A DNA stretch of 64,000 nucleotides from Candidatus Manganitrophus morganii. Its GTDB lineage: Bacteria > Nitrospirota > Nitrospiria > SBBL01 > Manganitrophaceae. This document shows, piece after piece, positions 57,482 through 59,790 of this stretch (positions are counted from its first letter, which is position 1; each line of letters opens with the position of its first letter). The notes beneath the pieces are model-generated. The model had not been told where the DNA came from, did not search any database, and saw only the letters and a list, made by a program, of their open reading frames with translations. The position numbers were made by a program, and so were the translations under genes. Location of the stretch: assembly GCA_021651055.1 (NCBI GenBank), contig JAJHOH010000001.1, positions 434,001 to 498,000 of the forward strand. The letters run 5' to 3'.

Positions 57482-57811
57482 TTATCCCCTTGCCCACGAT
57501 CGGGGCATCAGCAGTCGCTCGACGATCTCTCCCTTGAGGAGATGTTTTTCGATCACTTCCAAAGCGTCTTCCCGGTTTTTCACGGTGTACCAAACCCCTT
57601 CCGGGTAGATCACAACCGACGGTCCCATCGCGCAGGTATCGAGGCAGCCGGCCTGGTTGGCGCGGACAACTCCCTTCAATCCCCGGTTCGCGATCTCTTC
57701 CTTGAAGAACGACCGAAGATCGTCGGCCCCCTTCGTGGCGCAGCATCCCTTTGAATCACCCGCCGGACGCCGATTGGTGCAGATAAAAAGATGATACTTA
57801 TACTTTGACAT
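57482..57811 (-). CDS. Thioredoxin-like [2Fe-2S] ferredoxin
   Basis: 109 residues. KYHLFICTNRRPAGDSKGCC and QAGCLDTCAMGPSVVIYPEG give the four Cys of the thioredoxin-fold [2Fe-2S] family (C-x(10-12)-C and C-x3-C). It ends 5 bases ahead of mtaB, so it may feed electrons to the radical-SAM methylthiotransferases; that link is inference. Confidence 0.9.
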   Translation of the reverse strand: MSKYKYHLFICTNRRPAGDSKGCCATKGADDLRSFFKEEIANRGLKGVVRANQAGCLDTCAMGPSVVIYPEGVWYTVKNREDALEVIEKHLLKGEIVERLLMPRSWARG

Positions 57812-57839: not shown

Positions 57840-57912
57840 GTAGGGGCGTGATTCATCACGCCCTGATCTATTTTAAACAGAAAACACAGGGCGCAATGAA
57901 TTGCGCCCCTAC
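57840..57912. repeat. GTAGGGGCG-type palindromic repeat, copy 4
   Basis: Begins GTAGGGGCGTGATTCATCAC and ends GCAATGAATTGCGCCCCTAC; it is copy 2 in inverted orientation, both modules included. Its last bases supply the TAG stop codon of the minus-strand gene that ends at 57909. Confidence 0.88.
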
Positions 57913-58322
57913 GATTTCTCCTCCAGAAACCTTCGGAGTTCGTCCTTCAGCTCCGGAATCTGCGGGAGGTTGTTTCGAATCGCCCCCATGATGTTCTCCA
58001 GGCGCGCCATCCGTTGTGTCTCTTTGTCGGAGGCGATGTACTGATCGAGCGTCTCATAGGCGTTGCCATGATGGGATTCCAGAAACGGTCTTGCGGCGAG
58101 AAGGGCGGCGATCAAATCGGCCGGCTCGACATCGGGGGGAGAGGCCACCACAAACGTTCCATCGGAAAAGATGACGACCGCGTTCGACGGCCCCGCCGCA
58201 ACCACTTTCTCGATTTTCTTCCCGTCGGCCGAACTCCAGTCGATCAGCCGTCCCGGAAAAGTTTTGGCGAAGGCGACCTTTTCGGCGTTGATCTTCCATT
58301 TTTTCTCGACGTATCGCTCGAT
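57909..58322 (-). CDS. Orphan reading frame following rhodanese in the same frame, no standard start codon
   Basis: The frame begins just after the rhodanese TAG and stays open to 57909. The first codons are GCG ATC GAG CGA TAC; the first ATG/GTG/TTG is a GTG only at 58205, which would cut into a fold-like stretch (KINAEKVAFAKTFPGRLIDW). With an ATC start at 58322 (AGAGG seven bases upstream) it would encode 137 residues starting MERYVEKKW, with VVIFSDGTFVVASPPD in the middle and a helical end. Alternatives: readthrough of the amber codon, or a sequence error. Family unknown. Confidence 0.6.
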   Translation of the reverse strand: MERYVEKKWKINAEKVAFAKTFPGRLIDWSSADGKKIEKVVAAGPSNAVVIFSDGTFVVASPPDVEPADLIAALLAARPFLESHHGNAYETLDQYIASDKETQRMARLENIMGAIRNNLPQIPELKDELRRFLEEKS

Positions 58323-58325
58323 CGC

Positions 58326-58685
58326 CTACCTCTCCACCGGAAGGCCGAGCCGCCGCCACGCCTCGAAGCCCCCCTCCATCGAGGAGACGTTTTCATAGCC
58401 CATCTTCTTTAAGACCTGCGCCGCGACGGCGCTCCGTCCGCCCGCCGCGCAGTAGAGGATGACCGGCTGCGTCGCATCTTTAAAATGCCGCTCCATCTCC
58501 ATTTCCAAGATCCCGCGGGGGATGTTCCGGCTCTTCGGGACCCGTCCGGCCTGGAATTCGTCCCCCTCCCGGACATCGATCAGTGTGAATGCTTCTCCCC
58601 GCTCGATCTTCTCCTGGACATCTTTTACCTGGAGAAGCGGCACCTCCCGCTTCGCTTCCGCCACCAGATCCCGCCACATCTTCAT
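58326..58685 (-). CDS. Rhodanese-like sulfurtransferase
   Basis: 119 residues, single-domain. LIDVREGDEFQAGRVPKSRN is the CDC25-like entry motif and LYCAAGGRSAVAA carries the catalytic Cys in the CxxGxR loop. It transfers sulfane sulfur or acts in sulfur relay. The TAG stop is followed without a frame change by another open frame. Confidence 0.93.
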   Translation of the reverse strand: MKMWRDLVAEAKREVPLLQVKDVQEKIERGEAFTLIDVREGDEFQAGRVPKSRNIPRGILEMEMERHFKDATQPVILYCAAGGRSAVAAQVLKKMGYENVSSMEGGFEAWRRLGLPVER

Positions 58686-58776: not shown

Positions 58777-59790
58777 TCATTTTTGCGCCGGCGCTTCGAC
58801 CGTTTCACCCAGAAGACGCCCCAGGGCCGGCCGGCCGAAGAGGTTAAATCCCCGGGCCGCTTCAGGCGGGTGGCCCGCTACGCAGACGATCGGCTTCGAC
58901 CCCGCCGCCCCCAGCACGAGCGGCTTTCCGGAACGCATCGGGACCCCCTTCACCACCGCGCCGGGCGCTCCCGCCGCATTGACGAGATCGACGGTGAAAT
59001 CTCTCCCCCCGATCGCCGTCCCCCCGGAGATCACCACCATCTCGGCCTCCGCAAGGGCTTCCTTGAGCCGCTTTACGAAGAGATCGAAATCGTCTTTAAT
59101 GATCCCTTTGAAAAGGGGGGTCCCCCCCGCCTCTTCAACCAGTGCCGAGAGGCCGAACGAATTGCAGTCCCAAATCGCGCCGGCCCGAAACGGCTCGGTC
59201 GGCGGAATCACTTCGTTACCCGACGAGAAAATCGCCACGCGCGGCCGCTTCGCCACGCTCACTTCCAGAATCCCTTGGCCGGCGAGAAGAAAAATGTCGG
59301 CCGGCGTGATCCGGCGCCCCTTTGCAAAGAGAAGACTCCCCTTCTTCCGGTCACACCCTTGCGTCTCGATATTTTCATTCTGCGCAAGCGGCCGGGTCAG
59401 CCGGATCCGGTCCCCCTCCTGAGTCACGTCCCACTGTTTGACGACGGCGAAGTCGCCGGCGGGGATGTAGCTGCCGGTCGTCACCCGCATCGCCTTTCCG
59501 GGCCCTAACCCCTTTGCCTCTCCGGCGCCGACCGGAATCTCCCCGACGACGTTAAACGTCACGGGCCGCTCAGCAGAGGCAGCGGCCGCCTCCGACGCAA
59601 CCAGAACATATCCCTCCATGATCGAGCGGGAATAGGGGGGATCGTCGACCCCCGCCGTGACATCGGCCGCGAGGATACGCCCGCGCGCCGATGAAAGGGG
59701 GACCTTCTCCGCCCCCGAGACCCCTTGCGGGACCACCGCCAGAAAGCTCTCCAAGGCCGTTTGAACCGGATCGTCTTTTTGACTCATCAT
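58777..59790 (-). CDS. Molybdopterin molybdotransferase MoeA-like
   Basis: 337 residues, shorter than the usual ~400. N-terminal PLSSARGRILAADVTAGVDD and YSRSIMEGYVLVA, a beta domain, and the MoCF domain with SSGNEVIPPTEP, VISGGTAIGGRDF and AGSKPIVCVAGHP. The C-terminal MoeA domain IV appears missing or cut short. It should insert molybdate into adenylylated molybdopterin. Other Mo-cofactor genes lie at 61472 and 62900. Confidence 0.88.
   Translation of the reverse strand: MMSQKDDPVQTALESFLAVVPQGVSGAEKVPLSSARGRILAADVTAGVDDPPYSRSIMEGYVLVASEAAAASAERPVTFNVVGEIPVGAGEAKGLGPGKAMRVTTGSYIPAGDFAVVKQWDVTQEGDRIRLTRPLAQNENIETQGCDRKKGSLLFAKGRRITPADIFLLAGQGILEVSVAKRPRVAIFSSGNEVIPPTEPFRAGAIWDCNSFGLSALVEEAGGTPLFKGIIKDDFDLFVKRLKEALAEAEMVVISGGTAIGGRDFTVDLVNAAGAPGAVVKGVPMRSGKPLVLGAAGSKPIVCVAGHPPEAARGFNLFGRPALGRLLGETVEAPAQK

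Follow-up and report, generated by a model that had tools for sequence, protein, structure and literature searches.

To our knowledge, start codons other than ATG, GTG, and TTG are seldom recognized outside infC. The AUC codon, which is used by infC (dsg) of Myxococcus, is in E. coli only about 1% as active as AUG, or less. Published accounts report AUC as an annotated prokaryotic start of varying incidence (PMC9845219), discrimination by IF3 against noncanonical start codons, and, for mutant initiator tRNAs, re-initiation at codons other than AUG (both PMC2268962). In a B. subtilis study, an rny-lacZ fusion with an engineered AUC start was expressed at a much lower level (PMC10303841); AUC is therefore expected to be a weak start. 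A literature search, in which subscription papers were mostly not covered, returned no paper on a natural bacterial gene that starts with AUC. Regarding adjacent genes, one study found that 13 of the 14 overlapping gene pairs it tested were strictly coupled (PMC6728339), and another describes post-termination ribosomes that search for a Shine-Dalgarno (SD) sequence around the stop codon (PMC5972666).

The junction analyzed here lies in a 64,000-nucleotide stretch of the Candidatus Manganitrophus morganii genome (contig JAJHOH010000001.1, positions 434,001 to 498,000), referred to as the window. Its minus strand carries an open reading frame for a rhodanese-like single-domain protein of 119 amino acids (58326 to 58685; Pfam PF00581, E value of 1.1e-21, domain score of 77.5 bits against a cut-off of 22.2) that ends with TAG at 58328 to 58326. 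Past this stop, the frame stays open for 138 codons (58325 to 57912) until a terminal TAG at 57911 to 57909, and its first ordinary start codon is a GTG at codon 41 after the rhodanese TAG (58205 to 58203, minus strand), which leaves a 98-amino-acid reading frame and drops 39 residues. These data bear out the original prediction on three counts: a rhodanese gene and a downstream frame are split by an in-frame amber codon, 138 open codons follow it, and an ordinary start occurs only well inside. The junction codons, read on the minus strand, are GTG GAG AGG TAG GCG ATC GAG CGA TAC GTC GAG, which also confirms the AGAGG that had been noted upstream of ATC. Specifically, an SD-like GGAGAGG (58329 to 58335, minus strand) lies within the last rhodanese codons, directly before TAG, and 3 nucleotides separate TAG from ATC (58320 to 58322, minus strand), so that two co-directed genes would adjoin with the SD-like stretch inside the upstream one. 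From comparison of sequences, we consider it likely that the locus encodes two separate proteins, the second of which would start at the AUC 3 nucleotides past the rhodanese TAG, guided by GGAGAGG. The proposed coding sequence (57909 to 58322, minus strand; stop TAG at 57911 to 57909) would specify a Nitrospiria family protein of 137 amino acids, as judged from its homologues and from dN/dS.

Homologues of the downstream protein were present in 221 of 269 genomes of the class Nitrospiria. Within the genus, Candidatus Manganitrophus, five genomes hold the gene (G000, G002, G003, G004, and G005), and no match was found in the sixth, which is 72% complete. G000, the window's assembly (4.29 Mb, single contig), served as the reference genome for the junction, frame, and tRNA analyses. 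All five genomes that hold the gene share the order MoeA-like gene, rhodanese gene, downstream gene, ferredoxin-like gene, and two radical-SAM/UPF0004 genes. In the window, the MoeA-like molybdopterin protein is encoded upstream of the rhodanese gene at 58777 to 59790 on the minus strand (Pfam PF03453 and PF00994), and the next gene downstream, at 57482 to 57811 on the minus strand, encodes a [2Fe-2S] ferredoxin-like protein (phmmer to 1f37, E value of 2.3e-22; no Pfam match at 0.001). Of the 94 loci outside the genus, 77 also had a match to the [2Fe-2S] ferredoxin-like gene in the fetched stretch, an association that hints at an iron-sulfur or redox role for the downstream protein. The protein itself scored below cut-off in Pfam (best 13.2 bits against 25) and NCBIfam (best 12.3 bits against 440), had no PDB sequence match at an E value of 1, and, as a structural model of mean pLDDT 57.8 built with three close sequences, had no fold match at an E value of 0.001 or better. 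Between the downstream gene and the ferredoxin gene (57840 to 57912), the window contains inverted copies of a GTAGGGGCG...CGCCCCTAC element, and the TAG stop of the downstream gene sits in the edge of this element. On visual inspection, the edge is similar in G004 and G002 but the interior differs, and the element is absent from G003 and G005.

Start codons of the family were counted at 99 loci, one per genome, out of the 221 matching genomes (94 outside the genus and 5 inside); a partial match (L028), a second, broken copy (L029), and duplicate loci of the same genomes were left out. The broken copy (G016:C5:58532-58648) contains an internal TAA. Outside the genus, an ATG, GTG, or TTG was found 16 to 23 codons before the conserved FPG motif at 92 of 94 loci, and at 16 to 33 codons at all 94; the nearest start was an ATG at exactly 19 codons in 70 of the 94. 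None of the five genus loci has an ordinary start at 16 to 23 codons, and four of the five have none anywhere between the upstream stop and FPG. At these four, the proposed ATC is positioned 21 codons before FPG, within the start zone of the relatives, and among the 99 loci an ATC at the start of this family was seen only in this genus. The original prediction had named a clear independent ATG in relatives at this position as a refutation: such starts are found outside the genus and not within it, and the ordinary start in non-genus relatives confirms where the start belongs.

Purifying selection acts on the downstream frame: dN/dS, counted from the VEKK motif onward, ranged from 0.096 to 0.164 among four genus genomes, and in the two shifted frames dN exceeded dS (G000 versus G002 and G003). 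Downstream-gene dS between G003, the most distant of the four, and the others was 0.88 to 1.27. The rhodanese gene had a dS of 0.05 between G000 and G002, next to 0.31 for the adjacent downstream gene; this low rhodanese value beside the higher one suggests recombination or local constraint.

All five genus genomes have the rhodanese TAG, and in four the downstream gene is in the same frame; ATC is kept in all four of these. G000, G002, and G004 are identical from GGAGAGG to beyond ATC. In G003, the junction reads GTG GAG AAA TAG ACC ATC GAA CGG TAT, so that TAG and ATC are kept and the SD-like stretch is GGAGAAA. The codons flanking TAG differ in residue between G000 and G003, with Arg/Lys before and Ala/Thr (GCG/ACC) after, while the three differences across ATC-GAG-CGA-TAC are all synonymous, an outcome with a chance probability of roughly 1% on the assumption that one site in four is synonymous (96 of 399). 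This pattern, which comprises only a handful of changes, is the one that a start at ATC predicts. Other assemblies have the same TAG and ATC, including those of the two window matches, Candidatus Manganitrophus GAC4 (CP114561.1, 96% identical) and a Manganitrophaceae bin (SCUR01000266.1, 85% identical). The fifth genome, G005, whose protein is 66% identical, has a 17-nucleotide spacer from TAG to VEKK in place of 15, which puts the rhodanese and downstream genes in different frames. ATC is lost in G005 and hence is not universal in the genus; relative to FPG, an in-frame ATG lies 34 codons upstream, within the end of the rhodanese gene, and an ACG lies 19 codons upstream. The G005 gene would start either at the ATG inside the rhodanese gene or at another rare codon.

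To evaluate the SD-like stretch, a generic anti-SD was assumed, because neither of the 16S rRNA 3'-end patterns searched is in the G000 assembly. Duplex energies were −8.2 kcal/mol for G000, G002, and G004, −6.4 for G003, and −3.0 for G005. Among 3000 sampled in-frame positions, 262 (about 9%) reached −8.2 and 575 (19%) reached −6.4; before in-frame ATC codons, the corresponding counts were 200 and 478 of 2244. Since such strength is common by chance, the SD-like stretch is permissive of initiation and not proof of it. In raw folding energy, the 69-nucleotide junction of G000 reaches −22.2 kcal/mol, in a structure whose hairpin loop holds most of GGAGAGG, and that of G003 takes a different fold at −14.2 kcal/mol.

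Programmed amber read-through, in which some ribosomes would decode TAG and yield a fusion of rhodanese and family protein, accounts for a TAG and a frame shared by four genomes, for a downstream part without an ordinary start, and for conserved residues after ATC, a codon that would likewise be kept as a plain isoleucine codon in the read-through product. We nevertheless judge it unlikely. The different frames of the two genes in G005 mean that a fusion is not a design shared by the genus, and no fused version was found among the 94 loci outside it, all of which have ordinary starts of their own; no rhodanese match occurred in the flanks fetched for these loci (about 300 bases on each side for 60, at least 1.5 kb for most others). 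An anticodon CTA was absent among the 44 tRNAs found in G000. This set is incomplete, as it also lacks tRNA-Ile(GAT) and tRNA-Ala(TGC); an rRNA operon seems to be missing from the G000 assembly, and given the absence of the 16S 3'-end patterns some tRNAs may be missing too. The pyrrolysine synthetase model PylS reached 20.7 bits in G000 against a cut-off of 178.15; in control genomes, the same search gave matches in 13 of 14 and exceeded the cut-off in 1. TAG is an ordinary stop in G000, where it terminates 27 of the 151 genes of one 200-kb stretch and 22 of the 88 genes of a second stretch. Conservation of TAG was also considered as a sign of read-through and was rejected, as 15 of the 27 TAG-ending G000 genes also end with TAG in G005. 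Thus, the option of amber read-through that had been put forward originally is not supported by the G005 frame, the rhodanese-free flanks, the tRNAs found, or the ordinary use of TAG; spontaneous read-through of the rhodanese TAG may still occur at a low level. The other option, a sequence error or recent nonsense mutation in a one-piece gene, has in its favor that such events usually show up as a stop within an open frame. It is extremely improbable here, since TAG is common to five genomes, four of them in the same frame and other assemblies among them, with CP114561.1 and SCUR01000266.1 sharing both TAG and ATC, and since a one-piece version is absent among the loci examined.

Two further alternatives keep separate proteins and move the start of the second. 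Initiation at the internal GTG (58205), with the stretch before it untranslated, would give a 98-amino-acid reading frame, and a gene finder limited to ATG, GTG, and TTG must choose this GTG or a later start. Comparison of the preceding 35 codons between G000 and G002 is in line with such a start, with 4 synonymous and 5 nonsynonymous differences (dS 0.21, dN 0.063). The comparison with G003, however, gave 13.5 synonymous and 5.5 nonsynonymous differences (dS 1.25, dN 0.070), and that with G004 gave 4 synonymous and 0 nonsynonymous. The G003 and G004 comparisons support a protein that extends upstream of every normal start codon, which the G002 comparison alone would not. Moreover, the N-terminal regions encoded at the other loci examined align with this preceding segment and have their start codons in front of it, and a GTG start is therefore very improbable. 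Initiation at a different nonstandard codon nearby, either the GTC of the VEKK motif or a second ATC 10 codons on, is quite improbable as well. The second ATC is likewise kept in four genomes, and the exact codon is placed by comparison of sequences; against this, the spacing of the SD-like stretch suits the first ATC (5 to 9 nucleotides, by eye), a start at the second ATC would lose EKKW, whose equivalent follows the usual start of the relatives, and all differences between G000 and G003 in the codons from the first ATC to VEKK are synonymous. Of the options named in the original prediction, it is the ATC start with AGAGG upstream that finds support: four genomes retain TAG, ATC, and an SD-like stretch, and infC of these genomes also has ATC.

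The nearest precedent within these genomes is infC. In six of six genus genomes, it has ATC behind GGAGG and is without ATG, GTG, or TTG in the 19 codons before LR(I/V)N (or to a nearer stop). Among the 30 best-scoring Nitrospiria loci of 40 matching genomes (L204 to L233; from G000:C1:1322478 on in the reference), the start position is occupied by ATC in 27 and by ATG in 3, and the ATC is mostly preceded, by eye, by a purine-rich SD-like stretch. Exceptions among the 27 are L232, with an ATC further up, and L229, with a GTG 18 codons up. From these alignments, we infer that ATC is the infC start and, given its presence in 27 of 30 loci, that AUC very probably works as a start codon in this lineage.

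A survey for other rare starts compared 151 gene pairs between G000 and G005 and identified 7 with protein similarity that extends at least 20 codons beyond the first normal start. Another conserved frame overlapped 6 of these, two of them only to a small extent (49 of 165 and 18 of 138 nucleotides), and the downstream gene was the only one of the 7 not overlapped. Among 88 pairs around infC from the same two genomes, 7 cases were again obtained, with infC as positive control. Two were overlapped by at least 70 nucleotides, one of them by spurious-looking frames; two were overlapped by only 7 nucleotides, one with an evident ATG start (MAPD versus MVPD) and the other noncoding in appearance by eye; one has a TTG behind an SD; and one encodes a lipoprotein. 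Neither overlap nor an alternative start thus accounts for the downstream gene among the 151 pairs or for infC, the lipoprotein, and the doubtful frame among the 88. The lipoprotein-like gene (G000:C1:1314044-1314487, plus strand, in L238) is without ATG, GTG, or TTG before its signal peptide and has an in-frame ATT behind AGGAGGAGG as well as an in-frame CTG; it could represent a further rare start or an error.

Overall, we conclude that the AUC itself is probably a genuine start of the downstream gene and that initiation there is probably coupled to the end of rhodanese translation at TAG. Ribosomes would terminate rhodanese synthesis at TAG, and the next gene would start 3 nucleotides on at AUC, decoded by initiator tRNA as formyl-methionine, with the GGAGAGG that overlaps the rhodanese end guiding initiation at this codon. 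Ribosomes would reach AUC mainly by termination-reinitiation from the rhodanese gene. In view of IF3 discrimination and the low expression of the AUC mutant, those that leave the rhodanese gene are proposed to restart at AUC at a modest rate. Together, the AUC start and the coupling may keep the downstream protein low and tied to rhodanese. Loss of the usual start and location behind the rhodanese gene coincide in all five genus genomes; because both may trace to a single event, this association amounts to a correlation of one. Relatives keep ATG, GTG, or TTG, and the rhodanese-linked genus has lost the usual start, so that the locus can serve to test whether a gene tolerates a weak start codon when it is coupled to an upstream stop. 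A more far-reaching and rather doubtful proposal is that the downstream gene joins infC as a second AUC-start gene whose output follows the flow of ribosomes from the rhodanese gene and the level of IF3. If true, this would link a sulfur-transfer operon to the condition of the initiation machinery, since IF3 discriminates against such starts. For annotation, a gene finder restricted to ATG, GTG, and TTG is likely to yield the downstream protein without its conserved N terminus.

In comparison with known systems, the locus resembles amber suppression and pyrrolysine systems in that a conserved coding stretch follows an in-frame TAG; it differs from them in that no CTA tRNA was found among those of G000, PylS is below cut-off, TAG is an ordinary stop, and the frame differs in G005. 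With infC it shares a probable rare start codon that stands behind an SD-like stretch and is maintained over a lineage and, within the genus, the same codon, ATC. Unlike infC, the downstream gene encodes no translation factor by homology and lies behind a rhodanese gene, whereas the rare start of E. coli infC reportedly serves the feedback control of IF3 itself. As in termination-reinitiation pairs, stop and start are only 3 nucleotides apart, the SD lies in the upstream gene, and the genes are co-directed; the pairs described in those studies overlap and have ordinary starts, whereas here the restart codon would be ATC. The case is unusual but of a known sort.
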